Origin: a virus
Reading direction: 5' to 3' (one strand)
Length of the DNA: 32,720 bases
IMG/VR virus record: IMGVR_UViG_3300007276_000161
Coordinates: 1-32,720 of that record
The notes below the pieces were generated by a model. The model searched no databases, was not told the DNA's origin, and saw nothing but the letters and a program-made list of their open reading frames with translations. Within the stretch, counting starts at the first letter, position 1. Each line of letters starts with the position of its first letter. The position numbers and the translations under genes are program-made. Positions 3,548 through 32,720 of the stretch are shown piece after piece.

Positions 3548-3964
3548 ATGAAGCTAAATTATAAGGATTTTAATACACTTACACAAAAAGAGCTGTGTAA
3601 AATACCAGGTATTGGTAAAACTACAGCTAATCGCATAGCCGCTATGAGACCATTTAAAGAAAATAACGACCTGTTTAAAATAAAGGGACTAGGCCAAAAA
3701 ACACTAAAAGGTGTTGGTATTGAGAAAGTAAAAAAACAACGAAAGAAATGGATGAAGCATCCGTATGAGGGGGACGGCGTTGATTACCCGCATAGTTGTT
3801 TTGCAACCGATAGCGCAACCTCACAACTTGACTTCTTTTGGCGAATTCCACGTGAAAGGCGACTATATTACGGCCATGAAGATGAGTCTATGGCATTAAT
3901 TGAGAGCATAAGAGATACAAAAGAACAAGAGAATAATTCAAAACTGCAAGTAAATAATCTATAA
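3548..3964 (+). CDS. Helix-hairpin-helix (ComEA-like) DNA-binding protein
   Basis: 138 residues. Residues about 11-55 hold two tandem helix-hairpin-helix motifs: ELCKIPGIGKTTANRIAAMR and then LFKIKGLGQKTLKGVGIEK. The PGIGKTTA and KGLGQKTL hairpins are typical non-specific DNA-backbone binders of the ComEA type. The rest (60-138) is basic then acidic, with an aromatic cluster near DFFWRIPRERRLYYG and no known domain. It is the first gene of the plus-strand early operon, behind a sigma70-like promoter, and shares one base with the next gene (TAATG). A role in DNA binding during early infection is likely; the exact process is unknown. Confidence 0.8.
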   Translation: MKLNYKDFNTLTQKELCKIPGIGKTTANRIAAMRPFKENNDLFKIKGLGQKTLKGVGIEKVKKQRKKWMKHPYEGDGVDYPHSCFATDSATSQLDFFWRIPRERRLYYGHEDESMALIESIRDTKEQENNSKLQVNNL

Positions 3965-15297: not shown

Positions 15298-15740
15298 GTA
15301 CGTCCGCGCTGTGGTTGAATACCCTCGTCAGTTATAGGTGGTGAGTTAGGATCGATTGGAACGCCCTTAGATGGGCTAAGATGCATACGCATATCAGATT
15401 TTTCTAATTTACTACGAACATCTAATGGAAACTCTTTAAAGTGAGCTATAAAGACTTCCTCACCCAGCTCCTCCTTTAAGGAAATAACCAGCTTTTCGGT
15501 AGTACCCTTATATTTATCTAGTATAGCAGGCAATGCCTTTTGCTGTAACGATCTCATCGCATCTTCATACAAAGCCCTTTCTATATCATCCCTACCTGAA
15601 TGATCATCGTCAACGGAAGATGGTGTATCAACTGCATCCGCAGATAGCACGTCTTCTGGTTCACCACCCGGTGCGATGCCAGATCGTTTAAGAATTGACG
15701 ATATGTCTGCCCTAACTATGGTATTATTATCCTTATTCAT
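15294..15740 (-). CDS. Hypothetical acidic protein
   Basis: 148 residues. The N-terminal ~50 are acidic and disordered-looking (DVLSADAVDTPSSVDDDHSGR). The middle is helical (ALYEDAMRSLQQKALPAILDKY, LVISLKEELGEEVFIAHFKEF). The C-terminus is Pro/Ser-rich and ends in RGRT before TGA. It overlaps the glycosyltransferase gene by four bases, so it is coupled to it. The frame stays open beyond the TGA for about 55 codons (see the 15129-15297 entry). No family recognised. Confidence 0.7.
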   Translation of the reverse strand: MNKDNNTIVRADISSILKRSGIAPGGEPEDVLSADAVDTPSSVDDDHSGRDDIERALYEDAMRSLQQKALPAILDKYKGTTEKLVISLKEELGEEVFIAHFKEFPLDVRSKLEKSDMRMHLSPSKGVPIDPNSPPITDEGIQPQRGRT

Positions 15741-16687
15741 GAATTTTGCGCTCTAGCTCTTTTAATAACATCTGCTACGTTGACGGTGGGCTTACTTTTG
15801 ATTTGTACAGGAGTCTCTACTGCTTCTGCTACTGCTTTTATGTCAACCTCCTTATTTCCTAACAAGCCCGCTACCTCTGCCTTTATTGAGCTTCTTATTT
15901 CGTCCGAAAGTGTGTCTTTAAAGTTTTCATCTACGTCATCAAAATCCATATCTAGCTCCATCCTCCCTATTATATAGTTACGATACCTCTCGTCGAGCTT
16001 ATTTGGATATGGTACTCCATTAACTCGATTAAACCTATGCATCCACCCTAGAAAAGGTAAACATAGAGCTTCCTTACCGGCTTTTCTATATTTATCGTGA
16101 ATATACTGCTCCTCTCCTCCAAACCCACGGAACAACGGGCTATATCCCAACCAATTTTCTTTTCTGCTTGAAAATAGTCCCATTCCTTGCGAGTTAATAG
16201 GAAACGGTTGACTATCATAGTCAATTAAATTTTCATTACGGTCCCATTGACCCATCATGTGTGAGCCCCATTTCTTATTAAAGAATGTACTAGTTGAAGA
16301 TAAGCAGTCATGTATAAGGGGACCTTGCAACAAATTACCCTTATCTAATCCCTGATCATAATACTCAATTAATTTTTTTATAGCACCTGGTCTTATAAGA
16401 ACGTGACAGTCGATTGACATAACGTAAGGTGTTTTTGCATGTTCAAATATTAGGTTCTTTATTCCCGTTGCATTATATTCATCAAACGGAATATATTGAA
16501 ATGGCTGTCTAATATGCCCTGTAAACTCTTTCACCAATTTACCATGCTTTGAATTTGGGTGGTTGTCTATAATTACAAACTCAACCTGATCCATTACTTC
16601 GGGATGATACATCCTCAATGATTGGATGGTAAAAAACACACCTTCATAATCATCATAGCAACACATGCCAATCGTCAGTTTCCTCAT
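15737..16687 (-). CDS. Family 2-like glycosyltransferase with D-x-H and GGE motifs
   Basis: 316 residues. The GT-A domain begins KLTIGMCCYDDYEGVFFTIQSL. VEFVIIDNHP follows, then NATGIKNLIFEHAKTPYVMSIDCHVLI, where D-C-H (about 93-95) occupies the metal-binding position. The acceptor part has FRGFGGEEQYIHDKYRKAGKEALCLP and then GWMHRFNR (about 188-218). D-x-H plus a GGE…G…P…H-x-F arrangement is the layout of polypeptide GalNAc-transferases, though some ordinary family 2 enzymes share parts of it. A charged C-terminal extension (about 240-316) is Glu/Lys/Val-rich. The gene follows the threonine-rich adhesin gene by 40 bases on the same strand, making that protein a candidate substrate. Donor sugar unknown. 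Confidence 0.8.
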   Translation of the reverse strand: MRKLTIGMCCYDDYEGVFFTIQSLRMYHPEVMDQVEFVIIDNHPNSKHGKLVKEFTGHIRQPFQYIPFDEYNATGIKNLIFEHAKTPYVMSIDCHVLIRPGAIKKLIEYYDQGLDKGNLLQGPLIHDCLSSTSTFFNKKWGSHMMGQWDRNENLIDYDSQPFPINSQGMGLFSSRKENWLGYSPLFRGFGGEEQYIHDKYRKAGKEALCLPFLGWMHRFNRVNGVPYPNKLDERYRNYIIGRMELDMDFDDVDENFKDTLSDEIRSSIKAEVAGLLGNKEVDIKAVAEAVETPVQIKSKPTVNVADVIKRARAQNS

Positions 16688-16707
16688 GTAAATAATTATT
16701 TAAAATT

Positions 16708-16721
16708 GTTGATATATCAAC
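16708..16721. promoter_or_regulatory. Perfect 14-base palindrome GTTGATATATCAAC
   Basis: It lies between the adhesin stop (16728) and the glycosyltransferase start (16687). It could be a weak AT-rich terminator hairpin (minus strand, followed by AATTTT) or an operator. It also contains a TTGATA that, 16 bases before TAATTA, could act as a promoter for the glycosyltransferase. Confidence 0.35.
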
Positions 16722-16727
16722 TTAAGT

Positions 16728-19700
16728 CTACGGTAAATCTTCAATTACGCTCAACCCAACATATGTAGTACCGTATCCAGATGAACCAGAAGGTACATGT
16801 ATAAAAATATCAGTAGATGGTATGATAACAGTATTGGCTGATGGTGCGGTATTAGCAAAACACGAGACACTACTAAAGTTACAACCTGTCCAGTCGCTAC
16901 CAATTACAGACATAGTTGACGGTAAGGTCAAGCTCCCTGTCAATCCCGTACATCCAGTAAAGCTACCTTCTCTAGTCTCTGTTAAACCCTCTGGTAAGTC
17001 CAAATCACCAATAAATTTACAATTTTTAAACATATAAGAGTCAACGACTGTTATATTATTGCCTAAGTCTAATGAGCTGAAATTCGAATTTTCAAACATA
17101 TTAGCACTGTTCCATCCTGTGTCAACAATACCTGCGCTTAAGCGTGCACCAATGGTTAATTGTCCTGACATGTTTGCTTTATAAAATCCCCGGTATCCTA
17201 TTCGCTCTACACTATCTGGTATAACTAAATTCCCGCTCTGCTCAGCACCAGTTCCAGAACCGTCGACGAATCCACGCTCTGCGATCTCGACCAGCGTATC
17301 TGGAAGCGTTAATGTTCCAGTAAACCTACCTAACCCCGAACGAAAGCCAATACCAGTAAGGCCGTTATTAAGCGTCAACTGCCCACCAACTGCCTTACGG
17401 TCAAACGCATAATCACCAACTCGTAATATATTTGAAGGAATTTCTACATCTCCTACCATACCAGTACATCTATTAAATGTGTATGATTTAATTTGAGATA
17501 GGCTTGTTGATATATCAATAGCAGACAGTGAAGTACATCCCTCAAACGCCCCAGTCTCTAGAACCGTAACGCTGTTAGGTATGACGATGCGCCCTGATAG
17601 TGCAGTATCACCAGTAAATGCATTTTCACCAATAGCTGATACTCCATACTCAATAGTCAATGCAGACACAGCACTTATCGAGCTAAACGCCCGAGCACAT
17701 ATAGCATCGACAAAGCTCGGAATAGTTATTTCAGCAATATTTTCACAGCCGTAAAACGCAAACTCTCCTATAACCTCGCAGCTACTACCGATACTAATTT
17801 CATCGATATTAACATCATTCACTACCCAAAGGTCAGGTACATTTCCAAAAATAGATATTTCAGTAATATTATCGCTATAAAAGCTAGTAGTAAATATGTT
17901 AGGATTTAGCGTTGTCGTCGTCGTCGTCGTCGTTGTCGTCGTTGTTGTCGTTGTCGTAGTAGTTGGCAATATGTTTAAATCCTCATACACTACACCGTTA
18001 CCATCATTCCATAACCTCGCGACATCTGCACTTAATAGAGGAAAGTTCCATATGCCGAGTGACATCATTTGACCGTTCAGCGCATACGGGTCAGTATCTT
18101 CAAAATTAAATGCTAATGCTTTATAAAACGTACCAATTATAAAATACCCTTTATAATAGTCAATATTTAAGGGTACTGAGCCGCTCAAAGGCTGTAGAAC
18201 GTTATTAATATATAGCTCCTGCTTTTCCGCACTTGAAACAAACGTAACGTTGTACCATTGACCAGTATTGACGTTCAGATCTGAACGTATATCTGAATCA
18301 GCTCCAAACCAATCTTCTGACCTAGCAGCAAGAGGTGTATCATTTTCAGCAGAATTTACAATACCAGAAGCCATTAAATCAGTCTCTTCATTATTTCCCC
18401 AGGAGAAAATGCCTGTATTTATCGTGCTCAGGCCAGTATATCCAAGACCGTTATTAAGATCCACGGGCATTGATGATAAATTAACCCAGTATGAGAAACT
18501 AAATTCAGTATAATCAATTCCACCATCATAATAGTGTTGATCACTACTGATTAAATAATCATGTCCATCGAAGGTAATGCCTCCTGGATTTTCAAACATG
18601 AGAACGTCGCGCGCGCTCGGGCCCGCACCCAATGCAATAACAGGTGCACGCGACCCGTGATATGCGTCGAATGGTACCTCTAGATATCCCCATGACTTAA
18701 AGCCGTAATCGTAAATACCTTGATCAAGATCGGTTAGATCCCACCAATGTAAAGGCGCCTCCATTAGTGCTGAAAGAGCTGATGGTGCTAAGGTTGTAGT
18801 CGTTATTGGCGGTGCCGTAGTACCTGGAGGTAGTGTCGTAGTAGGTGCTGCTGTTGTTGTTGTGGTAGTAGGTGGGCATTCTAGTGCCAAATCAGCATAC
18901 TGCCGACCTGAACCATTGTTATATAAATACACTGCCTCGCGAATATTAAGTGCCCTGTCATATATACCTAGTGACATTAACTCTCCATCTAAAGCAGACC
19001 TTGACTGAGCCGGCTCAGTTAAGCTACCTGCATTGCCTATTACAAATTGCCTGTTAATAAGATTGCCGAGGCTAACACCGTCATTATTTGGAGATGAAGT
19101 AACCAGCTGACCGTTAACAAATATATTTAACGTCTCTGATGTAAGCGTAATAGTGTAGTGATACCATTGTGATGATTCAACATTAACATATAAGGTCTTA
19201 TTCGCTTGATTAATATTGCTCGTTGTTCCCTCCCACTTAAATAATACTGGATATTGAGGGGCTAGCTCTTCATTTTGTATGTTAATCTGCCACAGTACTT
19301 GATTATCGTCAATTGACCCCCACCACAAAACTGTACCGTAACTTTCACAACAGTGATTGGGTGGTTCACCAACCAGGCTAGTCTCTCCGGGAGATTTTTG
19401 CATTCTTAGCCAGAACGTAACAGATGCTTCATCACTGTTTTCACCATCCCACTCCTTTAAGCCTTCCTGATACAGGTACTGTGAACTCGGTCCATATGTA
19501 CCTGTAGTAAAATATGTATTTGAGTTCCTATTGTTATTAAATGCTAAAACGTCCTGGCCGCCAGGCCCCTCACCTGCGGAAAGTACAGGCGACTGGCCGG
19601 AGACGCTACTTAACGATCCCCATGTCTCAGTACCTTGATCCACAACACCGGTTAACGTGTCTGTAAGATCCCACCAATGAATAGGATCAGCTGGGCATAC

Positions 19701-20588
19701 TATATCATCAGGTGATAATGTTGTTGTGCCTGGTGCTGATGTAGTGGTAGTTACTCCTGGTGCCAGTGTAGTAGTTACTCCTGGTGCCAGTGTAGTAGTT
19801 ACTCCTGTTACTATGCACTCTGAAATAGGCGGTAATATATTAACCGAATCACCAACCTCAACAGGTATATCAATACCTGTCGGTACACCGTCTGATTGAA
19901 GGGTATATAAAATAAATGTATTGGCACCTGAGTTTGTTGTTGACAGTGGTGAACCAAAAGACATTCCCGGGTAAAGAGGCTCTGCAGAGCCTGTACTATC
20001 TATAGTCAGTGCAAAGTCTAGCTTAATCGAAGTAATTAATGAAAAAGCAGTAGAGTTGTAATTTCTATATTGAACATCTAGTGTACGTTTTATATTACTA
20101 TAGTTACATCTTATAACGTTTACGTTATTAATAATGCTGAAGTCTTCTGGTAGCGGTATATTACATACGACCGTATCGTCATATGTTCGAACTATTAAAG
20201 CGTTCGGTATGACTTCACTTTCTGTGACCCCTTTCCGGAACCCATTATCACTATTACCACTGAGAGCGAAAAGACCTGTCGAATCAATTGCAACAGTAAA
20301 AATATTATAAGGGGTAGTGAAGTTCGGCGCCGGTTCTCTATATTCTACTATATCAACAGTCTCTAGCGATTTAGGCTGTGTGGATAAAAAACGGCCGTTG
20401 CCGCTCAGTACTGGAAATACATTAACTCTATCAAAGTCGTATGTTAAAAAAGTAGCTACTCCGTGCTGAACACTCTCACTGCCCGATACCTGATAAACGA
20501 AAGACCATGTAATGTCGAACGCCGAATTATAAGCAGAAGTCTTATCTACAAAAGAATAATATTTAGCATTCGCTGGGAGTGTGATCAT
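16728..20588 (-). CDS. Large modular adhesin / tail fibre: two LamG-like domains, Thr-rich linkers, BspA-like leucine-rich repeats
   Basis: 1286 residues. An N-terminal strand-rich domain (about 1-258) has no recognised family. Linker 1 (about 260-292) contains TTTLAPGV octads. The first concanavalin/LamG-like domain (about 295-570) starts with HWWDLTD, has WYHYTITLTSETLNIFVNGQ and ends with MSLGIYDRALN. Linker 2 (about 572-602) is TTT/AAP/LPPG-rich. The second LamG-like domain (about 605-870) again starts with HWWDLTD and has WYNVTFVSS and MSLGIWNFPL. Linker 3 is a run of 18 Thr (about 875-893). A leucine-rich repeat domain of the BspA/LRR_5 type (about 905-1286) follows, with I-G-x-x-A-F-x-x-C and I-P-x-S-V units of about 23 residues. 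No signal peptide. This suits a virion fibre that binds glycans or host surface proteins. The start overlaps the preceding gene by 26 bases. Confidence 0.85.
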   Translation of the reverse strand: MITLPANAKYYSFVDKTSAYNSAFDITWSFVYQVSGSESVQHGVATFLTYDFDRVNVFPVLSGNGRFLSTQPKSLETVDIVEYREPAPNFTTPYNIFTVAIDSTGLFALSGNSDNGFRKGVTESEVIPNALIVRTYDDTVVCNIPLPEDFSIINNVNVIRCNYSNIKRTLDVQYRNYNSTAFSLITSIKLDFALTIDSTGSAEPLYPGMSFGSPLSTTNSGANTFILYTLQSDGVPTGIDIPVEVGDSVNILPPISECIVTGVTTTLAPGVTTTLAPGVTTTTSAPGTTTLSPDDIVCPADPIHWWDLTDTLTGVVDQGTETWGSLSSVSGQSPVLSAGEGPGGQDVLAFNNNRNSNTYFTTGTYGPSSQYLYQEGLKEWDGENSDEASVTFWLRMQKSPGETSLVGEPPNHCCESYGTVLWWGSIDDNQVLWQINIQNEELAPQYPVLFKWEGTTSNINQANKTLYVNVESSQWYHYTITLTSETLNIFVNGQLVTSSPNNDGVSLGNLINRQFVIGNAGSLTEPAQSRSALDGELMSLGIYDRALNIREAVYLYNNGSGRQYADLALECPPTTTTTTAAPTTTLPPGTTAPPITTTTLAPSALSALMEAPLHWWDLTDLDQGIYDYGFKSWGYLEVPFDAYHGSRAPVIALGAGPSARDVLMFENPGGITFDGHDYLISSDQHYYDGGIDYTEFSFSYWVNLSSMPVDLNNGLGYTGLSTINTGIFSWGNNEETDLMASGIVNSAENDTPLAARSEDWFGADSDIRSDLNVNTGQWYNVTFVSSAEKQELYINNVLQPLSGSVPLNIDYYKGYFIIGTFYKALAFNFEDTDPYALNGQMMSLGIWNFPLLSADVARLWNDGNGVVYEDLNILPTTTTTTTTTTTTTTTTTTLNPNIFTTSFYSDNITEISIFGNVPDLWVVNDVNIDEISIGSSCEVIGEFAFYGCENIAEITIPSFVDAICARAFSSISAVSALTIEYGVSAIGENAFTGDTALSGRIVIPNSVTVLETGAFEGCTSLSAIDISTSLSQIKSYTFNRCTGMVGDVEIPSNILRVGDYAFDRKAVGGQLTLNNGLTGIGFRSGLGRFTGTLTLPDTLVEIAERGFVDGSGTGAEQSGNLVIPDSVERIGYRGFYKANMSGQLTIGARLSAGIVDTGWNSANMFENSNFSSLDLGNNITVVDSYMFKNCKFIGDLDLPEGLTETREGSFTGCTGLTGSLTLPSTMSVIGSDWTGCNFSSVSCFANTAPSANTVIIPSTDIFIHVPSGSSGYGTTYVGLSVIEDLP
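17911..17964 (-). repeat. Triplet repeat encoding 18 consecutive Thr
   Basis: Fifty-four bases of ACN codons (minus strand), mainly ACG and ACA with two ACT. The mixed codons show that the Thr run is kept at protein level, not only by slippage. It links the second LamG-like domain to the leucine-rich repeats. Confidence 0.85.
19750..19807 (-). repeat. 24-base tandem repeat encoding the TTTLAPGV octad
   Basis: The plus strand shows two full copies (19750-19773, 19774-19797) and a partial third of GTTACTCCTGGTGCCAGTGT plus AGTA. The eight-residue period equals that of the repeat at 32636-32719 in another gene. Confidence 0.85.
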
Positions 20589-20790
20589 AACTGAAGGTGC
20601 ACGTTACCGTATTGTCGTTGTTGAATTTATTTGTAAATATAAGCTTATAGCCTAATTTTGTTAGCTCTAGCTCGACCACGTCTAAGTAAGTTGTTCCAAC
20701 GTTGATTACGATACTCCGACGTGCTTCATCATACAATACACAATCAGTGTATTCTTCACACAATTTCAGAGCCTTCTCATACGCCTTCAC
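20563..20790 (-). CDS. Hypothetical small protein with GTG start
   Basis: 75 residues starting with GTG at 20790. The start is supported by a perfect late octamer ending five bases upstream. A helical N-terminus (KAYEKALKLCEEY) is followed by strands (CVLYDEARRSIVINVGTTYLDVVELELTKLGYKLIFT). It overlaps the adhesin start by 26 bases, so it may be coupled to it. Size and place suggest a fibre-assembly or accessory protein, but no family is recognised. Confidence 0.7.
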   Translation of the reverse strand: MKAYEKALKLCEEYTDCVLYDEARRSIVINVGTTYLDVVELELTKLGYKLIFTNKFNNDNTVTCTFSYDHTPSEC

Positions 20791-20795
20791 ATTAT

Positions 20796-20803
20796 TATTT
20801 ATA
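20796..20803 (-). promoter_or_regulatory. T4-type late promoter octamer (TATAAATA)
   Basis: Perfect octamer on the minus strand, then five bases, then the GTG at 20790. It would transcribe the small gene and the large adhesin; the predicted start coincides with the G of the GTG. Confidence 0.6.
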
Positions 20804-20804
20804 G

Positions 20805-22067
20805 TTAGGGCGCTAAATCTCCATACACATTAACCTGAAATCTCGTACTGGCGTTATTATACCCAGGAGTTAGAATTGGTGATGTAGGTTGCGTGCTCCA
20901 TGTTTTATTAGTTAGGAAAGATTTTGATGAAGTAGCATAGAAATATACGATAATAGTATTAAAATTTGTAGGTGTTGAGATATCTGGTACTATTCGATAG
21001 CTACATTCTAAATGGGGGCTGACATGTACTATTCTATTCAACCCTGATGTTTCTTTAAAGTAAGATGCATTATTGGTGAATATTTCCACTTCACTATTAC
21101 TTACAAGGTATGTATCGTCTAAAATAATCTTATATACCCCAGTACCGGCCGTATTATCATAAATTGAAGTACTATTTGTAAATGGCATGCCATTATGAGT
21201 AACGGCATACTCGTTTAATATGGTACTACCCGGTTCAACCTCTACTGCACTCACCGCAGCACTTCTCATGACGGTGCTGTCTTGTTTAAACGAACAAGAT
21301 GCTACAGGAAGATGTATACCACTTATCTTTACATTACTACTGGTAAGTAACTGTGTTTCTGTCACGGTCTCATCATTAACAGCAAGAGTCAATCCTTCAC
21401 CAACAGATATAACAGCAGCAGACGCTGAACATAAAATACTGCTGACTGAACTCCATGTCAAGTTTCCGGACCCGTCTGTTTGAAGAAATCCATCTGCAGA
21501 TAATGTCGCTGGGAAAGTATACTGTACGCTGCCTATCTCTAGAGCAGCTGGTATAGTTAGAGTTGGTAATGCACTCTCAATCCTATTAACGGTTATTGTT
21601 TCTTGTAATGTAATCCTACCAACATTATCAAACTGTAGGTTACTGCCAACAACACCGCTATCGAGATTACTAGCAAATATTTTATTTACTTTTATTTGAT
21701 CGCTTGATATAGTTATGGTACTGTCACCGGCCGTAACCGGGTAGCTTACTTGCTGCCAGCTAGAAATTTCAGACGTTGGACCTCCGCGATATATATAGAG
21801 GGTTCTGTTAGACGTGTCATATGCATAATCACCGAAGCGTGGAATAGAGAATCCGCTATTAGTTACACCTACACGAGCACCGTTATATAAATTTCCTACC
21901 AAACGGCCACCAGATGTCGTAGCGTCACCCACATATAACCTATTATGATCTGTAGTATATCCTAATTCACCTACATCGAGCACCACGCCCTTTCTGTCTA
22001 GATCTGTACCAGACCTAACCTTTAACTTTAGTAACGTATTATTTGAAATTTCAATTGTATCAGCCAT
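20805..22067 (-). CDS. Tail fibre protein with Mtd_N-type N-terminus
   Basis: 420 residues. Residues about 10-60 (LLKLKVRSGTDLDRKGVV…ELGYTTDHNRLYVGD) match the N-terminal virion-attachment motif of Mtd-type and related fibre proteins: R-x-G-T…GELGY-x-T-D…+GD. The remainder is strand-rich, low in charge and Ser/Thr/Val-rich, with an LQTDGSGNLTW motif (about 195-205) common in phage fibres. The C-terminal ~150 residues have no recognised fold. It is a paralogue of the 22078-23250 gene, sharing only the N-terminal domain, as expected for fibres with a fixed base and different tips. Confidence 0.8.
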   Translation of the reverse strand: MADTIEISNNTLLKLKVRSGTDLDRKGVVLDVGELGYTTDHNRLYVGDATTSGGRLVGNLYNGARVGVTNSGFSIPRFGDYAYDTSNRTLYIYRGGPTSEISSWQQVSYPVTAGDSTITISSDQIKVNKIFASNLDSGVVGSNLQFDNVGRITLQETITVNRIESALPTLTIPAALEIGSVQYTFPATLSADGFLQTDGSGNLTWSSVSSILCSASAAVISVGEGLTLAVNDETVTETQLLTSSNVKISGIHLPVASCSFKQDSTVMRSAAVSAVEVEPGSTILNEYAVTHNGMPFTNSTSIYDNTAGTGVYKIILDDTYLVSNSEVEIFTNNASYFKETSGLNRIVHVSPHLECSYRIVPDISTPTNFNTIIVYFYATSSKSFLTNKTWSTQPTSPILTPGYNNASTRFQVNVYGDLAP

Positions 22068-22074
22068 AATTTTT

Positions 22075-22082
22075 TATTTAGA
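22075..22082 (-). promoter_or_regulatory. Late promoter-like octamer (TCTAAATA)
   Basis: One mismatch from TATAAATA, seven bases before the ATG at 22067, overlapping the stop of the 22078 gene. Weaker than the five-base-spaced boxes. Confidence 0.35.
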
Positions 22083-23250
22083 ATGTTGTTTCAGGGAAGA
22101 CGCGGATATATATAAGCGTACCGTCATGTGTGTCCCACTCTATTTTAGTAAGAAATCCTGGTGGGATCGTAGCCACGTCAGCAATATCACCGTGGATGAC
22201 CCTATAACTATTATCCAGTCCTAAACTGTAAAACCCTGCACCTCCTTGAATAACTGATAATATTCCAGACTGCCCGGGCTGCATATTAATAATATCGCGA
22301 AGAGTGTGTGCATCTCCTGTTAGTGTTACTATCGCATTAACGCCATTACTCGCATCCCAGTTAATTATACTGTTATCAGTCAGCGTTTGCGGCGTAGCAT
22401 AACCATCTGGTGTAATATTACCCTCTGCATTAAAGTCGACTGTTAATATACCATCATTAAGCGTAATAGTATCCCCATCAACACCTTGTACAACAGTCGA
22501 GATATCACCAGTTACTGGTGCAACAATAATACCCTCCTTGAGTTTGCCTACCTGAACCGCCGTTAACGGAAGCCCTACTACTGATAACTGACCTAGTTGA
22601 TTAACATCAATAGAATCACCATCAACAGAAACGCGTATAGGCACACCGTCACCTCCAATTATGCCACCGTCAACTACAAAAGACGATGAGGCAATATGGT
22701 CATATGTGATACCTGTACCTTCAATTCCGGCCGCAACGAGATCTAATCCATCAGCCGCAGCTATAAAGTTATTTGAATTATACCGCACTCTAATTTCATC
22801 CCCGGAGAATGATACAGTCTCGCTTGAAAGGCTAACAGTATTCATTGCGTTTGTATCTATAGAATTAGGTACAACAGTCAGCTTTCCCGTTTTCTTATTA
22901 GGGTCATTGAATTCTAAATACACATTATCTGGAGCATGTGTAAACAACGACCAATTGTTGATGTTGCTGAAGTCAGACGAAGTCAGTCTATAAGCCACGG
23001 GAGGAGTACCTACTAAAACAATATCATCCTTCTGTGCTTTAATAAGCGGTAAGGAGCTATAGCTCGGTACTGATTTAACGTGTTTATTATCAACCGGTAT
23101 ACCACCGGTAGTAACACCATCGCCTATAAAACACCTCTTTGTATCTGTTGCGTATCCTAACTCACCTTCATCGAGTACAATTTGAGCTCGTTGTGCATCA
23201 GTACCGCGCCTAACTTTAAGTTTTATTACTTTTATTTCTGGTGTAGCCAT
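22078..23250 (-). CDS. Tail fibre protein with Mtd_N-type N-terminus (paralogue)
   Basis: 390 residues. The N-terminus (about 7-52) has KLKVRRGTDAQRAQIVLDEG, then ELGYATDTKRCFIGDG, then TTGG, a very good match to the Mtd_N consensus. The middle is strand-rich and includes YRLTSSDFSNINNWSLF (about 85-102), a short segment often seen in phage fibres. It is followed by Asp/Gly/Val-rich repeats (VDGDSIDVNQLGQLSV, VDGDTITLNDGILTV) typical of a beta-helical or triple-stranded shaft. The C-terminal ~90 residues form a separate tip domain. It starts three bases after the stop of the 23254 gene, without a Shine-Dalgarno. Confidence 0.8.
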   Translation of the reverse strand: MATPEIKVIKLKVRRGTDAQRAQIVLDEGELGYATDTKRCFIGDGVTTGGIPVDNKHVKSVPSYSSLPLIKAQKDDIVLVGTPPVAYRLTSSDFSNINNWSLFTHAPDNVYLEFNDPNKKTGKLTVVPNSIDTNAMNTVSLSSETVSFSGDEIRVRYNSNNFIAAADGLDLVAAGIEGTGITYDHIASSSFVVDGGIIGGDGVPIRVSVDGDSIDVNQLGQLSVVGLPLTAVQVGKLKEGIIVAPVTGDISTVVQGVDGDTITLNDGILTVDFNAEGNITPDGYATPQTLTDNSIINWDASNGVNAIVTLTGDAHTLRDIINMQPGQSGILSVIQGGAGFYSLGLDNSYRVIHGDIADVATIPPGFLTKIEWDTHDGTLIYIRVFPETTF

Positions 23251-23253
23251 ATT

Positions 23254-23817
23254 TTAAATTGTTTTTTCTATTACCCAACCCGTTCCGCTCTCGCCTGTAA
23301 ACCTAAGCTTAATTAAACCATCATTAGCTAAATTACGCACAAATGCAACATCATTGATTACAGGATACGGCCAATCTTCTGAAGCTGCTGTAATATAGTC
23401 GCGAGTAGTTGGGTTAAAGTTACGTATATAAAAAGTATTGATTGTTGGGTTATCCTGTACTTTTGAAACTATTCCTTCTGTAATGGTTACTCTCGGATTA
23501 CTATATACACCATCAATAGGCAGTGCTGTTCCAATATCAGATCGAAGCAGGTCGAGTAGGCTAGTATATCCTAATCGGCCAGTAGAATCGATAACATACA
23601 CGATAGATCCTTGATCGCCTTTATTTCCAGGATATGTAACTCTATTGATTTGAATACTTCCATCCAATCTCAACCCACTGGTTGATATCTGTAGAGGTGA
23701 AGTTACACCAACACCATCAAATACTGGTTGGAAAGTCGAAGTTAGGTTTGTTGCGGATAAGTGAAGAAAAGAACTATAGACGTCACTAATACTGTTACCG
23801 GTTAAATCACGGGGCAT
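23254..23817 (-). CDS. Fibre-associated structural protein
   Basis: 187 residues. The N-terminus (about 10-55) has SDVYSSFLHLSATNLTSTF, followed by VFDGVGVTSPLQISTSGLRLDG, a pattern I associate with N-termini of marine phage fibre or collar proteins. The middle includes an LLDLLRSDIGTALP helix. The C-terminus is strand-rich and ends in GWVIEKTI. It leads a set of three fibre genes (23254, 22078, 20805) behind a late-type octamer five bases upstream. A role as fibre base or attachment protein is likely from context. Confidence 0.65.
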   Translation of the reverse strand: MPRDLTGNSISDVYSSFLHLSATNLTSTFQPVFDGVGVTSPLQISTSGLRLDGSIQINRVTYPGNKGDQGSIVYVIDSTGRLGYTSLLDLLRSDIGTALPIDGVYSNPRVTITEGIVSKVQDNPTINTFYIRNFNPTTRDYITAASEDWPYPVINDVAFVRNLANDGLIKLRFTGESGTGWVIEKTI

Positions 23818-23822
23818 ATGTT

Positions 23823-23830
23823 TATTTATT
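23823..23830 (-). promoter_or_regulatory. Late promoter octamer (AATAAATA)
   Basis: One mismatch from TATAAATA, five bases (AACAT) before the ATG at 23817. It would serve the three-gene fibre set 23254-20805. Confidence 0.5.
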
Positions 23831-23847
23831 ATTAAGGTGTTGAAATA

Positions 23848-25599: not shown

Positions 25600-27836
25600 A
25601 GTACTTCTACGTTTCTTATGTTAGTGTTCATAGGCACAACATCGTAAACAGTGCTCCTAAGAGCCATCGCAACCTCTTCTTTGAGATTTGAATCGTTCGT
25701 TTCAATGTCATTTACATAAACATCAATATCAGAGGTTTTGCTCTTTTTATTGGCCTGTAGCGCGTTCAACTCCTTAATTGAATCGATGTTATTTCTCCGC
25801 CCTTGTGGTAAAGTGATTGTCATCTCTTGCTGCATTGAATTATATTTACAGTTTATAACCTCTACAAACTCTGGCGGGAGAGGTTTACCGGTAATAAAAG
25901 GATCAACTAAGTACTTCTCAGAGGCGAATAACGAGCCACCATCATCAGTGACAAAATCACCATAAACGACTGCAGAATATTTTAATGGAGGAAACCTCGT
26001 ATTAATCACATTAATACCGTTAATATATGCCTGTATAATGCCTCTTACATTGTCTACAGAAACAACAACATTCGACGTAACAACACTTTCAACAGATAAT
26101 CTACCCTCTTCCTTAATTAATCTACCAGTCTGGTTATTATAGAGTGTATGCGAAACGACAACTTCTTTACCGTTGTATGATATCACTGTACCGGCTGGAA
26201 TCTTATTAAACGACGACTTAATAACCTTATTCTTTGTAACTCCATAGCTGCGGATTTTGGCTGCAAAAACAAACCCGTTGTTTTTGTTTATTTCGTTATA
26301 GTAGCTTCGATCTTGACGGTTTAAGATATTTTCTTCCTGAATAAACGATAAGTTATTCAAGTCTATTCTTTCATATATATACTCATTATTTGGCTTAAAC
26401 ACCATATTACTTTTAACGTCAAAATAGTAGTCTGTTGCAATATTTGAGGATATATTAGCATCGTTTGATACAAAATTTTGAACGTACTTATCATACGTAG
26501 TAAATGTAATCTCACCAGCGATAGCTTCTTCCTTTTTGATGAGATCAGGGTAATAATATCGATCTACCCATAGCTTGTCATTACTTAGCGGTGCACCGGA
26601 CAGCCAGGTGCATAAGTAAACATAATCCTCGCTTTTGTTATTCTCTTCACGTGTTATAACTCTGTCAGCGAACATAGGCGTTAACGAACTAAACCCACCG
26701 CAATTTATAAACTTAGTATCTTGAATGTTGAGTTGATTATAGGGGTATAATGACTCTCTCGTCTTTATGATATTAGTACCTGGAAGTATCTTATACGCCA
26801 TGTTGTAAGAGCTGTAATTCAACTCTAATCCGTGCTGATCATGACCGTCAATATTCTTATTAATACTGGTATAGCTTCTCATGTCCACCTCCAGCTTTTC
26901 TAGTTTTGTATTACCGCTTGAAAGTACCATGTTATTACCTCTTACCATAGTATTCAAATCTGACATTTGATTCTTAAGAGTTATTATATCTACAGACTTA
27001 TAATCTCGTGTATTAAGATTTTTTGTAATTAGGTAATTATTGTTTAAGTTACTATAGCTATTAACTGCATCTACAACTACGGAGTTAGGCTTATACTTAA
27101 TATAACTCATGTCATCAGCACCTGTAATTACATCCTCAACCTGACCGTTAATTTTGAGTGCATGTACTTGAATCATCGAGTCTGTTAGATTAGTAGCTGC
27201 CCTCGCACTTAATTTGTTTTCATATATACGCAGCTGTAACGGCCCGTCACATGTATTCTTGATTAGTGATATTTTACCGTTACCTATTACATACCTTAAG
27301 TATAAATCCCTAGCGACTTCCTCGTCACTGTAGTTATAACCTCTCTTTAAAACACACTCATTATTATTATCTACGGTTAGATAACTCACACCGTATAAAT
27401 CCGTATAAGAGACGAGACAGAGCTCATCATCTATAAAATCAATTCTATATATATTAGCATTTTCTTTAGTAGTAGTAGTTTCAGTGTTATATACTAAATT
27501 TAAAACATTAGGATTCGCTGTGCCGTTGACTGATAAAGGGCTGCTTATTACATTGACCAAGTATACATCATCATTACTCAAAGTAGTGCTTAAGTACTTT
27601 ATTTTGCGTGTGCTTGAGGTAGTAGTTCTTTTCTGGCTCAGATCCGACTTACGAGTTAAGTAAAATAAAGTATAGTTTCTAACATCCACATCAATCACTC
27701 CAGACAACGCATCAACAAAATTAAACGTATAGCCTCCTGGGAATGCAATAAGTGCTTGCTTAAGTGAAGTATCTACCAGGTTTGTAGTAGTATTCAGATC
27801 AGATATAAAGCTGGTTGATGTTATTAATTGAGACAT
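25596..27836 (-). CDS. Large virion-associated protein, function unknown
   Basis: 746 residues, rich in Asn, Tyr, Ser and Thr and dominated by predicted strands. The N-terminus starts SQLITSTSFISDLNTTTNL. A region at about 530-640 (NGFVFAAKIRSYG, VVVSVDNVRGIIQAYINGINV) resembles a LamG/concanavalin-like lectin sheet. The C-terminal ~120 residues are charged and helical and end in RNVEVL. It is transcribed from a perfect late octamer placed 11 bases before the ATG, overlapping the preceding stop. Probably a structural fibre or baseplate-wedge component; a specific name cannot be supported. Confidence 0.75.
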   Translation of the reverse strand: MSQLITSTSFISDLNTTTNLVDTSLKQALIAFPGGYTFNFVDALSGVIDVDVRNYTLFYLTRKSDLSQKRTTTSSTRKIKYLSTTLSNDDVYLVNVISSPLSVNGTANPNVLNLVYNTETTTTKENANIYRIDFIDDELCLVSYTDLYGVSYLTVDNNNECVLKRGYNYSDEEVARDLYLRYVIGNGKISLIKNTCDGPLQLRIYENKLSARAATNLTDSMIQVHALKINGQVEDVITGADDMSYIKYKPNSVVVDAVNSYSNLNNNYLITKNLNTRDYKSVDIITLKNQMSDLNTMVRGNNMVLSSGNTKLEKLEVDMRSYTSINKNIDGHDQHGLELNYSSYNMAYKILPGTNIIKTRESLYPYNQLNIQDTKFINCGGFSSLTPMFADRVITREENNKSEDYVYLCTWLSGAPLSNDKLWVDRYYYPDLIKKEEAIAGEITFTTYDKYVQNFVSNDANISSNIATDYYFDVKSNMVFKPNNEYIYERIDLNNLSFIQEENILNRQDRSYYNEINKNNGFVFAAKIRSYGVTKNKVIKSSFNKIPAGTVISYNGKEVVVSHTLYNNQTGRLIKEEGRLSVESVVTSNVVVSVDNVRGIIQAYINGINVINTRFPPLKYSAVVYGDFVTDDGGSLFASEKYLVDPFITGKPLPPEFVEVINCKYNSMQQEMTITLPQGRRNNIDSIKELNALQANKKSKTSDIDVYVNDIETNDSNLKEEVAMALRSTVYDVVPMNTNIRNVEVL

Positions 27837-27847
27837 ATTGTTTATTA

Positions 27848-27855
27848 TATTTATA
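27848..27855 (-). promoter_or_regulatory. T4-type late promoter octamer (TATAAATA)
   Basis: Perfect octamer, 11 bases before the ATG at 27836, overlapping the TAA of the 27851 gene. The predicted leader is only about six bases. Confidence 0.55.
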
Positions 27856-30800
27856 ACACGAAGCAGTTGGCCGGTCCTATATTACATGAACAAAGAGATG
27901 GTGTATTGGAGGATACTGCCACTTCAAAAGTAGCAAGATATGAGTCATCAACAAATGATTGATGTGATGAGGATCCAAACCGTTCACCTATTGCATTTTT
28001 AATTATAATATCACCATATTCAGCAAAGTTCATAGCTATCATATACGGTAGTTTGTTTGCATCTTTTAGTGTGTATGTTAAATGAAACCGGTTGATTTGC
28101 TCATTGTATGTAAGGCACACCTCACCAACCTCTACATACAAGTCACCTGCTCCGGCTATTACAAACTCTTCAATATTATATGTATCGAGTGATATATTAG
28201 TTAGTATTTTTTTCTTAGTCGAATATTTATATACTAACGGTACAATCGCAAGACCGGCCCCTTCAACCGCAGTAGATGAAAGAGCAACAAAATATAGCTC
28301 ATCGCGAACCTTAAGTCGATTTGAGATTTTATTAAACGGTGTCTGATTATACTCATACTGTATATTACTCGTGCCTGGATCTATAAACTCATTATTAACA
28401 TATTTTACTTCGTCAATAATTAAATTTTCCTTAGTTTGAATGATATACGTATTATATATCATATCAAACGCTATGGTGTTTGATGATATGTCCGCATATA
28501 AAGACGATGTGTATTTATTCTCTAGGTATGGTAGTGAGTCTGTAAATGTATTGATAGCTCCTGATGTTTGCTTAACGTATATCGTTCCTGCTAGCTGCAT
28601 CCTATCTAGCAGTGGCATATTCTTTTCTGATAACGCTGGTATTATCTCAGTCCTGCTATCAGTACTGGACTCAATTAGATTTAGACCGGGCTTGTTGAAC
28701 AATATGTCAAAATCATTTGAAAGGTCTGATGTAAATCGACACGCATCCGCGTCGAAGACGTCATTCGAACTCAGAGCTCGTACTCCTTGAGTAAAATTAG
28801 CATTTAACCCTTCAAGATTAGGCCTCACGTATGGGTCTGATGTATATACACCCGCTTCGAAGAGCTCCGTATAATAATAGTTATCAGTACCCGGCCATGT
28901 CGACTTATCAGTAGATATCGGATCTAAAACTAGCTGGTCGTCGCTCGTAGTAAAGAAGCCGCTATCACAGTATAAAGTATTGCGTGGGTTAGGTTCGCTA
29001 CATATTGTATCGATATCAATAACGGTTTTGAGGGGTATATTTAAGTCATTACTAAACTTACCGAAAGCTAGCGTGGTAATCGGATTATCAGTAAAGCTGC
29101 CAGTACGTGTACCGTTGCTCCATCCAGGGACACGTACATCTCCTACTGTAAATGTAGCTCCGTAATTAAATGCATATTTTTGATTAAAGAAACTATCATA
29201 GAATCTATAACCGTTAAATAATATGAAGGTCGCAGCGAGAGAGTCACCAGTACCTGGAACACGCACTACATCACTACTACCGGGTACAGTTACATCCTTG
29301 AACAGTCCGAATAAATTGCCATGTAAATCTGTCTTAGCATCATCTACGTACCCTTTATTAACAACAAAGCTCAAGTCTCTATTTTTAGAGCTATTTACAT
29401 GAGATGAGTAGCCGTAAAACGGTATAAAACTATCGCTAGTGTTAGGCTCAGTATAGGCACGTCCAAACCCATACCCTTTGTGGAATGAATTTACATCGAC
29501 GTTGAAATTCAATACGCTAGAATCAGACCCGTAAATAAACGGGTCAGGGAAGTAATATGGTTTTCTGAAATTTATATTACTATCGAGTGATATGGTGAAA
29601 TTAAACACTCCAGGCTCGACTAAGATGATCGCCGTTTTACCAGGTGTAAAAAATCCGATATCTCTCTTCTGGACACGGTGCCCTGTTCTAGATGAGACGG
29701 TTGATGGTACGTCTCTGTTCTGAAAGTTCATAACTGGATCATCAGCAGTAAACAGTTTGTCAAAATTAACAACGCTCCTTGTAACTAATCCCTCAATACG
29801 GCGCGGTATATTACTCGCACTTACAGTAACTACAGGTGTAAGTATTGAATTACTCTCTCGTACAAATGTAGCAGGTTGAAGGTTTTCAAGTAACCCGCCA
29901 TATAGAATAAATCCAGGCTGTCGCGCTAGGAACTCCTTTTGCGCGGCTGTATCTCGCTCCTGTGCAGTCTTATTAAGAATCAACACATCAAGAAATGAGT
30001 ATTGACGATATAATATTAGCTCTTTTGACTCACCTGTTGCATCACCAAATTGCGAACTATCACCATATACATCAACCGCTATATCGACAATGTTAGCCAA
30101 CTCAGGAGTAGGGAAGTTCTCAATAGTAACGTACCCGAAGTTTTCGGTAGTATTTTTATCTTGAATTAGTGTACGACCTCCGATATTCCAGCTCAGCTTA
30201 CTAAAGAAATTCACATCGACAAAACCTGAATCAGGATCTTCTGTAGTAGTTGCTCGTACATGTAACGTACACACTTGATCATTAATATAGTCTGCAAAAA
30301 CGTGTATATTTAAGTTACGTGTATAGCTACTCACATCAGAGATGATATCGTAGTAATTAAGCGTGTTAAACCCCTTATCATAGAGCAGCGGTCTTAATGC
30401 TTTAAGTCTTTGCGCTAGATAACCGGCTCCGGGAATGTTGTACACAAAAATACACTCTGCAGTGCAGTCATAATCAGGAGCAATATAACGGTGTGCAAAT
30501 TCAAGAACCTGATTAACGTGTCTTCCTCTTTCGAAATACTTCACAGGTGTAATATCGAACTTACCGTCACCAAACTTCCATATAATATACTCCAACTCCT
30601 CAGTAACGTTTACCGTGAAGATAGTATCAGAGGGTAGACCTACTTGTTCAGCAGGTGTTATATTGAAGGCATACATCTCCTCACCGCTCTTTTGCTTTGA
30701 TTTTAAAGCTAACGTTTCAATTTCATAGCTAACAACCGTTTCAACTCGATTTTGCTGAAGAACCGTCTGACCCTTTACGTTAATCTTATATTTATCACTA

Positions 30801-31582
30801 TTCCTTACAAGGTGTAGAATAACAAAAGGCTCATAACTCAATGTAGTTGGTAATAACGGGTATTTGTATCTAAATGTCGATAGTGACTGGTCGACTGGAA
30901 CTCCCAAGCCTATACGTTGGACGTGAGTCGTACCATCGCCAAAGACCCACTCTATATATTCAATATCCGTACGGTTAATTATATTTTTAAGCGAGAAGTC
31001 AATAATAACAGGACCTTCTAATGGATTGACCGGTGTTGATATGAGCTCAACATACCCAGTGTCATTACCCACATTAAATAAAAGATCAGTATTTTCTGTC
31101 AGTGTATACTGGTCTGTAAGCGAGAGCCAATTGCTAGGATAGTTATATTCTAATCGTTTTGCTTGAGCTGTTACCTTTACTGAAGCGCTAGTATAAGCAG
31201 TTCCATTCGCTTTTACTAGCGTAAGACGTGCTTCGTACTCACCATCCTCTGCATAAACATGCCGAATTCTAAACTTTGGAATTCCTAAAGCGCCAATCTG
31301 CTCTTGAAATGGCCTCCAGTCTGGAAAGAACCGATCTTCGGCCTGCCCAGTATATCTTACCATATTGTTCAGCAGTGAATTGTACCTACTTACTTCACTT
31401 TGTGAATCGGTAAGCGTCTGCTCAAAGATAGTACCATCACCAAGATCCCATATAGCGGTATTTATATCCTCGTTATCAGGGAAGAAAAATCCACCGTAAA
31501 AATCTATCTCTCTAGAATACCCGTCACTAGCATATCTTAGTAATGAGTACTCTAAGTTTATTGTATTTACAATATTAGCCAT
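27851..31582 (-). CDS. Very large virion protein with PKD-like domains
   Basis: 1243 residues. Three PKD-like repeats are visible by their W-x-x-GDG signature: AIWDLGDGTIF (about 44-54), EWVFGDGTTH (about 212-221) and IWKFGDGKF (about 334-342). Each is followed by a Y-x-x-x-G/Y segment such as FRIRHVYAEDGEYEARLTL. PKD domains are Ig-like folds common in surface and adhesion proteins. The rest (about 400-1243) is strand-rich, Asn/Asp/Tyr/Phe-rich, with no recognised family and a Cys pair at the end (LCSCNIGPANCFVL). No signal peptide. It is first of the minus-strand large-structural set, behind a CATAAATA box. A long tail-fibre or baseplate-decorating role is likely. Confidence 0.8.
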   Translation of the reverse strand: MANIVNTINLEYSLLRYASDGYSREIDFYGGFFFPDNEDINTAIWDLGDGTIFEQTLTDSQSEVSRYNSLLNNMVRYTGQAEDRFFPDWRPFQEQIGALGIPKFRIRHVYAEDGEYEARLTLVKANGTAYTSASVKVTAQAKRLEYNYPSNWLSLTDQYTLTENTDLLFNVGNDTGYVELISTPVNPLEGPVIIDFSLKNIINRTDIEYIEWVFGDGTTHVQRIGLGVPVDQSLSTFRYKYPLLPTTLSYEPFVILHLVRNSDKYKINVKGQTVLQQNRVETVVSYEIETLALKSKQKSGEEMYAFNITPAEQVGLPSDTIFTVNVTEELEYIIWKFGDGKFDITPVKYFERGRHVNQVLEFAHRYIAPDYDCTAECIFVYNIPGAGYLAQRLKALRPLLYDKGFNTLNYYDIISDVSSYTRNLNIHVFADYINDQVCTLHVRATTTEDPDSGFVDVNFFSKLSWNIGGRTLIQDKNTTENFGYVTIENFPTPELANIVDIAVDVYGDSSQFGDATGESKELILYRQYSFLDVLILNKTAQERDTAAQKEFLARQPGFILYGGLLENLQPATFVRESNSILTPVVTVSASNIPRRIEGLVTRSVVNFDKLFTADDPVMNFQNRDVPSTVSSRTGHRVQKRDIGFFTPGKTAIILVEPGVFNFTISLDSNINFRKPYYFPDPFIYGSDSSVLNFNVDVNSFHKGYGFGRAYTEPNTSDSFIPFYGYSSHVNSSKNRDLSFVVNKGYVDDAKTDLHGNLFGLFKDVTVPGSSDVVRVPGTGDSLAATFILFNGYRFYDSFFNQKYAFNYGATFTVGDVRVPGWSNGTRTGSFTDNPITTLAFGKFSNDLNIPLKTVIDIDTICSEPNPRNTLYCDSGFFTTSDDQLVLDPISTDKSTWPGTDNYYYTELFEAGVYTSDPYVRPNLEGLNANFTQGVRALSSNDVFDADACRFTSDLSNDFDILFNKPGLNLIESSTDSRTEIIPALSEKNMPLLDRMQLAGTIYVKQTSGAINTFTDSLPYLENKYTSSLYADISSNTIAFDMIYNTYIIQTKENLIIDEVKYVNNEFIDPGTSNIQYEYNQTPFNKISNRLKVRDELYFVALSSTAVEGAGLAIVPLVYKYSTKKKILTNISLDTYNIEEFVIAGAGDLYVEVGEVCLTYNEQINRFHLTYTLKDANKLPYMIAMNFAEYGDIIIKNAIGERFGSSSHQSFVDDSYLATFEVAVSSNTPSLCSCNIGPANCFVL

Positions 31583-31589
31583 TCACATA

Positions 31590-31597
31590 TATTTATG
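31590..31597 (-). promoter_or_regulatory. Late promoter-like octamer (CATAAATA)
   Basis: One mismatch from TATAAATA, seven bases before the ATG at 31582. The rest of the 61-base gap to the next gene holds a weak 7-bp inverted repeat only. Confidence 0.45.
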
Positions 31598-31643
31598 CAA
31601 GGTGACGTGATACCCCGTCTAGTGTATGTGAGTAAATATCAAT

Positions 31644-32435
31644 TTAAATACCGTCGCATATTATATCTGCGAGGGAATTATCTGTGCATCCGTGCACCAA
31701 TACAACATTCTCTATATCAATCCTCTTGTCATACGGCTCAGGAAATTTGAGCTTTTCGAATCCTTCGCCCATCTCTCCCTTAATATTTATTCTACCAGTC
31801 GATTCATCTTGTGTTTTAGTATATTTACATGTACGGTATACATGTTGCATTAGCGACGTTTCATGAGCGTTAGGTACAAACTCCCACTGACACAGCACAT
31901 CCCACGCCACACCAAGTACCTGTACTTTTCTCCATAGTTTGGAGTATTTGTCTAGGTTAGGTGGGTATATAGCAGCTCCTACCAGATGCTTACACAGCAC
32001 CAACACTTCCTGTTCTGAAGTAACGGTAGTAGTGTTACCGAGGTTACCTAAAAATGGCTTACCTTGCTCTTTATATTCTAAATACATATCATCAGCCCAG
32101 CCCTGCTTAATAGGTACCATATCCATCTCTAACCAAAGCCATGGCTCCTCACTCTTAATAACATCGTCTAAATACTTAGCTGTTTCTGCCCAGTAATGAT
32201 TACACCCACGCGGCCATCCATCCGGTCCATCATCATCAAACACATGAAAATCGATACTCTGAAACTGATTTTTGTTTGTTATGGCTAATAGAACCTCTTC
32301 CGCGTAATCTGCAGCATTTGGCCGACACACTACCAATAGCTTATGATTAGGATATGGTCCAAAGTGATTGAAACTCTTAATAAATCCTAACCCAACATCT
32401 GCATCAGTCTTTGATACTGGCACTACAATAATCAT
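31644..32435 (-). CDS. Glycosyltransferase-like protein (GT-A type)
   Basis: 263 residues. An N-terminal strand MIIVVPVSKTDAD opens a Rossmann-like half with LLVVCRP (about 34-40). DFHVFDDDGPDGWPRGCNHYW (about 62-82) follows, then LWLEMDMVPIKQGWADDM, where E-M-D-M (about 102-105) is in DxD position. The second half has FLGNLG, VGAAIYPPN and AWDVLCQWEFVPNAHETSLMQH. It ends with VVLVHGCTDNSLADII, a conserved C-terminal signature of phage proteins of this type. No membrane segment. It lies 37 bases downstream of a threonine-rich repeat protein gene on the same strand, just as the 15737 enzyme follows a threonine-rich adhesin. Sugar and target unknown. Confidence 0.75.
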   Translation of the reverse strand: MIIVVPVSKTDADVGLGFIKSFNHFGPYPNHKLLVVCRPNAADYAEEVLLAITNKNQFQSIDFHVFDDDGPDGWPRGCNHYWAETAKYLDDVIKSEEPWLWLEMDMVPIKQGWADDMYLEYKEQGKPFLGNLGNTTTVTSEQEVLVLCKHLVGAAIYPPNLDKYSKLWRKVQVLGVAWDVLCQWEFVPNAHETSLMQHVYRTCKYTKTQDESTGRINIKGEMGEGFEKLKFPEPYDKRIDIENVVLVHGCTDNSLADIICDGI

Positions 32436-32440
32436 ACCGT

Positions 32441-32448
32441 TACTTATA
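32441..32448 (-). promoter_or_regulatory. Late promoter octamer variant (TATAAGTA)
   Basis: One mismatch from TATAAATA, exactly five bases (ACGGT) before the ATG at 32435; predicted leaderless transcript for the glycosyltransferase. Confidence 0.45.
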
Positions 32449-32472
32449 TAGCGACGCTTATAAATCTACTAT

Positions 32473-32720
32473 CTACAACATGTTCTGCAAAGTATTTAAT
32501 ATATCGGAAGCATACTCGCGCGCGAAAGCGAGGGGATCAAGCAGCTGCTCGGCTCCAAGTGTACCGGTAATTGGGAAAGGTATCATATACGGTGCCGCTG
32601 TCGTTGTAGCTGGTGGTGCCGCTGTCGTTGTAGTAACTGGCGCTGCAGTAGTAGTAGTAACTGGCGCTGCAGTAGTAGTAGTAACTGGCGCTGCAGTAGT
32701 AGTAGTAACTGGCGCTGCAG
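32473..32720 (-). CDS. Threonine-rich repeat protein, C-terminal part only
   Basis: The minus-strand frame is open from the window edge to a TAG at 32475, giving 82 visible residues; the start lies beyond 32720. The first part is a mucin-like repeat of TTTTAAPV octads (four AAPV blocks), then degenerate TTTAAPPATTTAAP. It is followed by a short C-terminal segment of about 40 residues (ITGTLGAEQLLDPLAFAREY…), which looks helical and may cap or attach the protein. The repeats resemble the linkers of the 16728-20588 adhesin, so this is probably another fibre or adhesin. The next gene on the same strand is a glycosyltransferase, 37 bases downstream. Confidence 0.7.
   Translation of the reverse strand, partial: AAPVTTTTAAPVTTTTAAPVTTTTAAPVTTTTAAPPATTTAAPYMIPFPITGTLGAEQLLDPLAFAREYASDILNTLQNML
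32636..32719 (-). repeat. 24-base tandem repeat encoding the TTTTAAPV octad
   Basis: ACTGGCGCTGCA occurs at 32636, 32660, 32684 and 32708, separated by GTAGTAGTAGTA: an exact 24-base period that continues to the window edge. It is coding (minus strand), not a CRISPR array. Confidence 0.9.

Follow-up and report, generated by a model that had tools for sequence, protein, structure and literature searches.

Threonine-rich adhesin and glycosyltransferase genes paired in an uncultivated virus: a predicted virion O-glycosylation module

Threonine-rich genes of the window

The sequence analysed here, a fragment of 32,720 bases, comes from an uncultivated virus (IMG/VR record IMGVR_UViG_3300007276_000161); we call all of it the window, and it has replication genes on its left and structural genes on its right. 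On the minus strand, the gene for a large threonine-rich adhesin is directly followed by a gene for a glycosyltransferase, here named GT1. This pairing recurs in dozens of other uncultivated viruses, an indication that certain phages make a mucin-like coating of their own. The features of the pair are as follows.

15737..16687, minus strand: GT1, GT-A glycosyltransferase resembling polypeptide GalNAc-transferases (ppGalNAc-T), 316 amino acids (PF00535, AlphaFold model, Foldseek, invariant columns)
16688..16700, minus strand: AT-rich leader AATAATTATTTAC, directly 5' of the GT1 start codon; these 13 bases plus ATG are identical to the GT1 leader in loci L157 and L191
16728..20588, minus strand: threonine-rich adhesin, 1286 amino acids, with an N-domain, two LamG domains, a BspA-type leucine-rich repeat (LRR) region and three threonine-rich linkers (LRR_5, E 5e-57; Laminin_G_3, E 4e-18)
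19803..20588, minus strand: adhesin N-domain, residues 1-262 (homologues occur as separate genes upstream of threonine-rich genes and GT1 in other viruses)
19707..19811, minus strand: linker 1, residues 260-294, TTTLAPGV octads, putative acceptor (from sequence)
18792..18884, minus strand: linker 2, residues 569-599, TTTTTTAAPTTT, putative acceptor (from sequence)
17880..17987, minus strand: linker 3, residues 868-903, 18 consecutive threonines, putative acceptor (from sequence)

The adhesin thus runs from the N-domain through linker 1, a LamG domain, linker 2, a second LamG-like region and linker 3 to the BspA-type LRR. The first-pass annotation had reported threonine-rich repeats in two genes of the window, the adhesin and a partial gene at the contig end (open frame 32473-32718), with a gap to the next gene on that strand of 40 bases (adhesin to GT1) and 37 bases (contig-end gene to 31644-32435), respectively. 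Both the gaps and the repeats were confirmed, the latter as the three adhesin linkers and four TTTTAAPV octads in the contig-end fragment, and the pattern encoding TTTTAAP occurs 5 times against 0.00 expected from 100 dinucleotide shuffles. That annotation had also placed a glycosyltransferase behind each of the two genes, which holds for GT1 (Pfam Glycos_transf_2, E 6e-7), while the product of 31644-32435, treated below, is probable only. The linkers are encoded by mixed ACN codons, inside the threonine runs as well, and the run of linker 3 varies in length, with 18 codons here and 17 in the near-identical contig L002. Beyond the adhesin, two adjoining proteins (20805-22067 and 22078-23250, minus strand) each have at their N-terminus an Mtd_N domain, known from the major tropism determinant (E 8e-6 and 1e-10, respectively).

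Fold, metal-site motif and gene neighbourhood of GT1

GT1 scores 30.0 bits against PF00535, above the gathering cut-off of 23.3, and the same profile is matched by 38/38 aligned members of its family. The AlphaFold2 model built from 38 sequences has a mean predicted local distance difference test score (pLDDT) of 88.3, with low confidence after residue ~280. When this model was compared with the PDB by Foldseek, ranks 1 to 47 were all polypeptide GalNAc-transferases of family GT27, with E values from 2e-13 (rank 1) to 4e-11 (rank 47). Realignment with VIA-align 2 placed GT27 in the first 28 rows (Z 24.3 to 21.3, ~257 residues, ~2.9 Å), the next family being represented by the chondroitin polymerase K4CP (Z 20.4). 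The closest predicted viral structure was A0A6J7WYC1, from an uncultured Caudovirales phage (E 8e-27). The folds nearest to the GT1 model are those of peptide O-GalNAc transferases and not of enzymes that modify DNA or host glycans. Eight columns are invariant in 38/38 sequences, namely D93 and H95 (forming a DxH motif), G188, F189, G191, E192, E193 and H217. In GT27 the manganese ligands are a DxH motif plus a distant histidine (PMC6994419, PMC11074326), and in the snail ppGalNAcT the catalytic Trp359 lies 28 residues before His387 (PMC6994419), which is exactly the spacing from F189 to H217 in GT1. Our claim is that GT1 would work like a GT27 polypeptide GalNAc-transferase while not being a member of that family.

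For the gene neighbourhood, a small-profile search yielded 500 relatives of GT1 in viral contigs, the best 80 of which were taken. A gene was counted as threonine-rich when it encoded at least 8 threonines within 20 amino acids, a threshold set while the first GT1 loci were being tabulated; open reading frames were called in a simple manner, and redundancy was removed on the enzyme by shared 4-mer clustering. A threonine-rich gene lies directly upstream of GT1 in 79% of the 78 viral loci retrieved by enzyme sequence and in 29/41 non-redundant loci, compared with 1.3% of genes at least three positions away; 20,000 within-locus permutations averaged 4.5 and never exceeded 14. The share of threonine-rich genes falls from 71% at position -1 to 34% at -2 and 1.3% further away, and the median gap to GT1 is 11 bases. 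The pairing of adhesin and enzyme, for which the first-pass annotation had proposed a neighbourhood search, is thus conserved. Approached from the opposite direction, a scan for DNA encoding TTTTTTAAP led to locus L145, where a GT1 homologue (35% identity, E 3e-51) again comes next after a threonine-rich gene, and to L147, where a second GT1 homologue lies further downstream. In L157 a tail protein (PHROGs) is encoded four positions upstream. Because the 80 loci are those closest to the enzyme of the window, the pairing rate may drop in more distant relatives. Among 50,697 isolate phage records, none contained GT1 at E 1e-5.

A scan of bacterial genomes gave 118 relatives of GT1, from which 80 loci were taken (38-49% identity; many from Alphaproteobacteria and Desulfobulbaceae). 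Same-strand genes adjacent to the enzyme (positions ±1) were threonine-rich in 17/82 cases, compared with 1.1% of distant genes, and many of these neighbouring proteins bear export signals; several have a twin-arginine-like signal at the start and a Thr/Pro-rich tail at the end. The bacterial enzymes are longer than GT1; additional domains among the 59 scanned were GT25 (19), HPr-kinase-like (11), PqqD (9) and epimerase (1). PqqD domains bind precursor peptides in known systems, so that their fusion to these enzymes would fit a protein substrate. As judged from gene order and domain content, the bacterial relatives and the exported threonine-rich proteins beside them may form a protein O-glycosylation system.

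A second enzyme family, a three-gene module and the second pair

The genes directly downstream of TTTTAAP-encoding genes were also analysed in viral contigs (76 after removal of redundancy). A first Pfam pass identified a glycosyltransferase in only 1/76, and the signal emerged only with PHROGs and profiles: 19 of the 76 belong to phrog_4417, a PHROGs family of unknown function. Conversely, a threonine-rich gene is found directly upstream of phrog_4417 in 38/51 non-redundant viral loci, against a background of 6.9%. Relatives of this family occur in 74 isolate phage records, and 11/13 isolate phages examined have a threonine-rich gene directly upstream, several of these genes being annotated as major tail, tail tube or capsid protein. 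In the other two, TJE4 and nattely, the threonine-rich gene lies a few positions downstream, and in nattely it encodes the major tail protein. A threonine-rich tail is likewise present in LP65 gp051, whose annotation as a structural protein cites detection by two-dimensional gel and mass spectrometry. The family has an HDSDI (DxD-type) motif and conserved glycine and histidine positions reminiscent of GT-A enzymes, and we hypothesize that phrog_4417 is a glycosyltransferase. Searches of PDB sequences with phrog_4417 gave no convincing match. In loci L410 to L423, from phages of lactic acid bacteria, Enterococcus and Staphylococcus, phrog_4417 stands behind capsid, tail-tube or major-tail genes with poly-threonine tails, and several of these phages have two threonine-tailed structural proteins.

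Two further elements accompany GT1 in viruses. Homologues of the adhesin N-domain, as separate genes of ~220-310 amino acids, were found in 35 viral GT1 loci, while the phrog_4417, TTTAAP and bacterial loci contained none. Of the non-redundant GT1 loci that extend far enough upstream, 16/27 have such a gene, in most cases as the second or third gene ahead of GT1. As the N-domain occurs there as a gene of its own, the window looks like a fused form of a module made of N-domain, threonine-rich protein and GT1. The other element is a C-terminal tag, C[NK]xLx[FYW], carried by 73/96 threonine-rich genes and by 1/1054 other genes in GT1 loci, and found 0 times in the phrog_4417, TTTAAP and bacterial sets. 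It also occurs on 11 threonine-rich genes at position -2, and therefore marks threonine-rich proteins and not just the immediate neighbour of GT1. Its role may be to dock the enzyme or to anchor the protein in the virion. Chances seem to us about even that a large group of uncultivated phages has its own mucin-type module in this form, comprising the N-domain fibre protein, the tagged threonine-rich protein and the GT27-like enzyme, with a tag that may serve as dock or anchor and with bacterial cousins of the enzyme that would glycosylate exported threonine-rich proteins and grip them by means of PqqD-type domains.

The second pair of the window behaves differently from the first. Its features, together with a third glycosyltransferase used as a control, are the following.

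31644..32435, minus strand: GTx, probable GT-A-like enzyme (low-confidence model; pairing with a threonine-rich gene not conserved)
32473..32718, minus strand: C-terminal fragment of a threonine-rich protein, four TTTTAAPV octads, ended by the contig end (open frame)
4632..5294, plus strand: third glycosyltransferase, among replication genes (Glyco_tranf_2_5, E 7e-16; Pfam); closest relatives in viral contigs 81-86% identical

The GTx product matched no Pfam and no PHROG family, and PDB sequence searches gave no convincing match here either. Its model has a pLDDT of 56 and is only faintly like a GT-A fold (Z 9.5 against GnT-II); we rejected a fold assignment on so weak a model, and because of this low confidence and weak likeness GTx is graded only as a probable glycosyltransferase. 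Relatives of GTx (47-50% identity) have a threonine-rich neighbour in 0/8 loci, or 0/4 after removal of redundancy. The second pair was accordingly rejected as a conserved system; these neighbourhoods make it look like a chance arrangement, or at most a trait of this one phage. Kinship among GTx, GT1 and phrog_4417 was rejected as well, since profile comparison shows no similarity. The control enzyme at 4632-5294 has a threonine-rich neighbour in 0/4 non-redundant loci, which, with four loci, makes it a weak control.

Proposed mechanism, alternatives and known systems

We consider it likely that the adhesin and GT1 form a virion O-glycosylation module. GT1 would transfer a sugar, presumably from UDP-GalNAc or another UDP-sugar donor, to threonines in the adhesin's Pro/Ala/Thr-rich linkers, the adhesin being the product of the gene just upstream and its linker threonines the putative acceptor residues. 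The glycosylated linkers would then serve as extended, protease-resistant, mucin-like spacers that keep the binding domains (LamG and LRR) at a distance from the virion. The idea of the first-pass annotation that the phage sugar-coats its fibre linkers thus receives support for the adhesin/GT1 pair, from the conserved pairing and the GT27-like fold, and none for the second pair; catalysis, presence in the virion and biological benefit, including the proposed protection from proteases and tuning of host binding, are what we infer.

Several observations weigh against this proposal. The match between the metal sites of GT1 and GT27 was taken from sequence spacing and not from model geometry. No sequence similarity of GT1 to ppGalNAc-T could be detected (hmmsearch with profiles A6 and A7 against PDB sequences), the best matches of these profiles being TarP, K4CP and other GT2 enzymes, and no C-terminal ricin B lectin domain was matched in its 316 amino acids; it is for the lack of sequence similarity and lectin domain that GT1 is not assigned to GT27. 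About 29% of its non-redundant relatives are not behind a threonine-rich gene. Some reside in other clusters, where the neighbour may be a further GT2 gene (as in L210) or a radical-SAM gene (as in L186). In L166, L169, L170, L172 and L229 the gene for the N-domain protein immediately precedes that for the enzyme, and no threonine run separates them. Finally, the adhesin of the window itself is devoid of the C[NK]xLx[FYW] tag.

It has also to be considered whether GT1 instead alters a host surface polysaccharide, as GtrB-like enzymes do in superinfection exclusion or seroconversion, and stands at the end of a tail-fibre cluster by chance. This would fit a weak hit of GT1, over residues 1-110, to the PHROG for GtrB-like O-antigen conversion (E 0.0033), similarly weak hits to polysaccharide GT2 enzymes in NCBIfam, and the relatives that adjoin other GT2 or unrelated genes. 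We regard it as unlikely, given that its closest folds are peptide GalNAc-transferases, that threonine-richness is specific to the gene directly upstream, that some bacterial relatives sit beside threonine-rich exported proteins and some are fused to PqqD, and that the window contains no gtrA- or gtrC-like neighbour, GT1 being flanked by the adhesin and an acidic open reading frame of 148 amino acids without Pfam match. That GT1 glycosylates phage DNA at a hypermodified base, or some other target, and shares a transcript with the fibre gene only by chance appears highly improbable. The window does begin with the C-terminal part of QueC (1-309, plus strand), followed 3.6 kb on by a class-II glutamine amidotransferase (GATase_6/7; 3964-4635, plus strand), which together may indicate that the DNA of this phage carries 7-deazaguanine modifications; the queC region is 11 kb from GT1 and on the opposite strand, and the position of GT1 relatives behind fibre genes, the GT27-like fold and the threonine-rich bacterial neighbours all argue against this reading.

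The threonine stretches might, on the other hand, be mere flexible low-complexity linkers grown by codon slippage, with the glycosyltransferase next to them drawn from a shared cargo hot spot at tail-fibre loci. A run of 18 versus 17 codons in near-identical contigs is what slippage would produce, and about three quarters of the 76 non-redundant TTTTTTAAP genes in viral contigs are followed by neither GT1 nor phrog_4417. The mixed ACN codons within the runs speak against it, as do the preference of two unrelated enzyme families for the same position, the co-occurrence of tag and N-domain with GT1, and the lack of pairing for both control enzymes (GTx and 4632-5294), and we judge this explanation quite unlikely. 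O-glycosylation of the linkers is favoured because the alternatives explain less well the position-specific threonine signal, the fold and the bacterial neighbours.

Virion glycosylation has been proven in few phages. If the proposal is true, a glycosyltransferase gene directly following that for a threonine-rich virion protein would be a simple genomic predictor of glycosylated virions across many phages, phrog_4417 would gain a function, and prokaryotes would turn out to have an enzyme family that shares its fold and metal-site motif with the animal initiators of mucin glycosylation. The phrog_4417 arm can be tested in existing isolates, such as Lactococcus phage 1706, Lactobacillus phage iLp84 and Enterococcus phage phiFL1C. 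The combination of GT27-like enzyme, threonine-rich acceptor, tag and module had no match in the literature searched, the coverage of which is incomplete, so that an earlier description is possible.

As far as the accounts of Freeman et al. 2023 in PMC12619734 and PMC11256854 extend, phage-encoded glycosyltransferases decorate structural proteins in mycobacteriophages, and the kind of system proposed here is therefore already known; the adhesin/GT1 pair has in common with it a phage-encoded glycosyltransferase genetically linked to a structural gene. According to the same accounts, the mycobacteriophage glycans are at the C-termini of capsid and tail-tube subunits, whereas here a GT27-like enzyme is associated with threonine-rich fibre linkers, and with a separate C-terminal tag in most relatives. 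The phrog_4417 family is like GT1 in following threonine-rich proteins and differs from it in having no profile relation to it. K4CP, TarP and other GT2 enzymes share the GT2/GT-A fold of GT1, with structural scores below those of GT27, and act on polysaccharide or teichoic acid. In GtrABC serotype conversion, the gtrA flippase gene and gtrC accompany gtrB, and the neighbourhood of GT1 lacks them. With GT27, the initiators of mucin-type O-glycosylation, GT1 has in common the GT-A catalytic fold, the DxH motif and distant histidine, an aromatic-G-G-E motif at equal spacing to that histidine and a Thr/Pro-rich candidate acceptor; it differs in having neither the ricin-type lectin domain nor significant sequence similarity, in its phage and bacterial distribution, and in that its activity is a predicted one.

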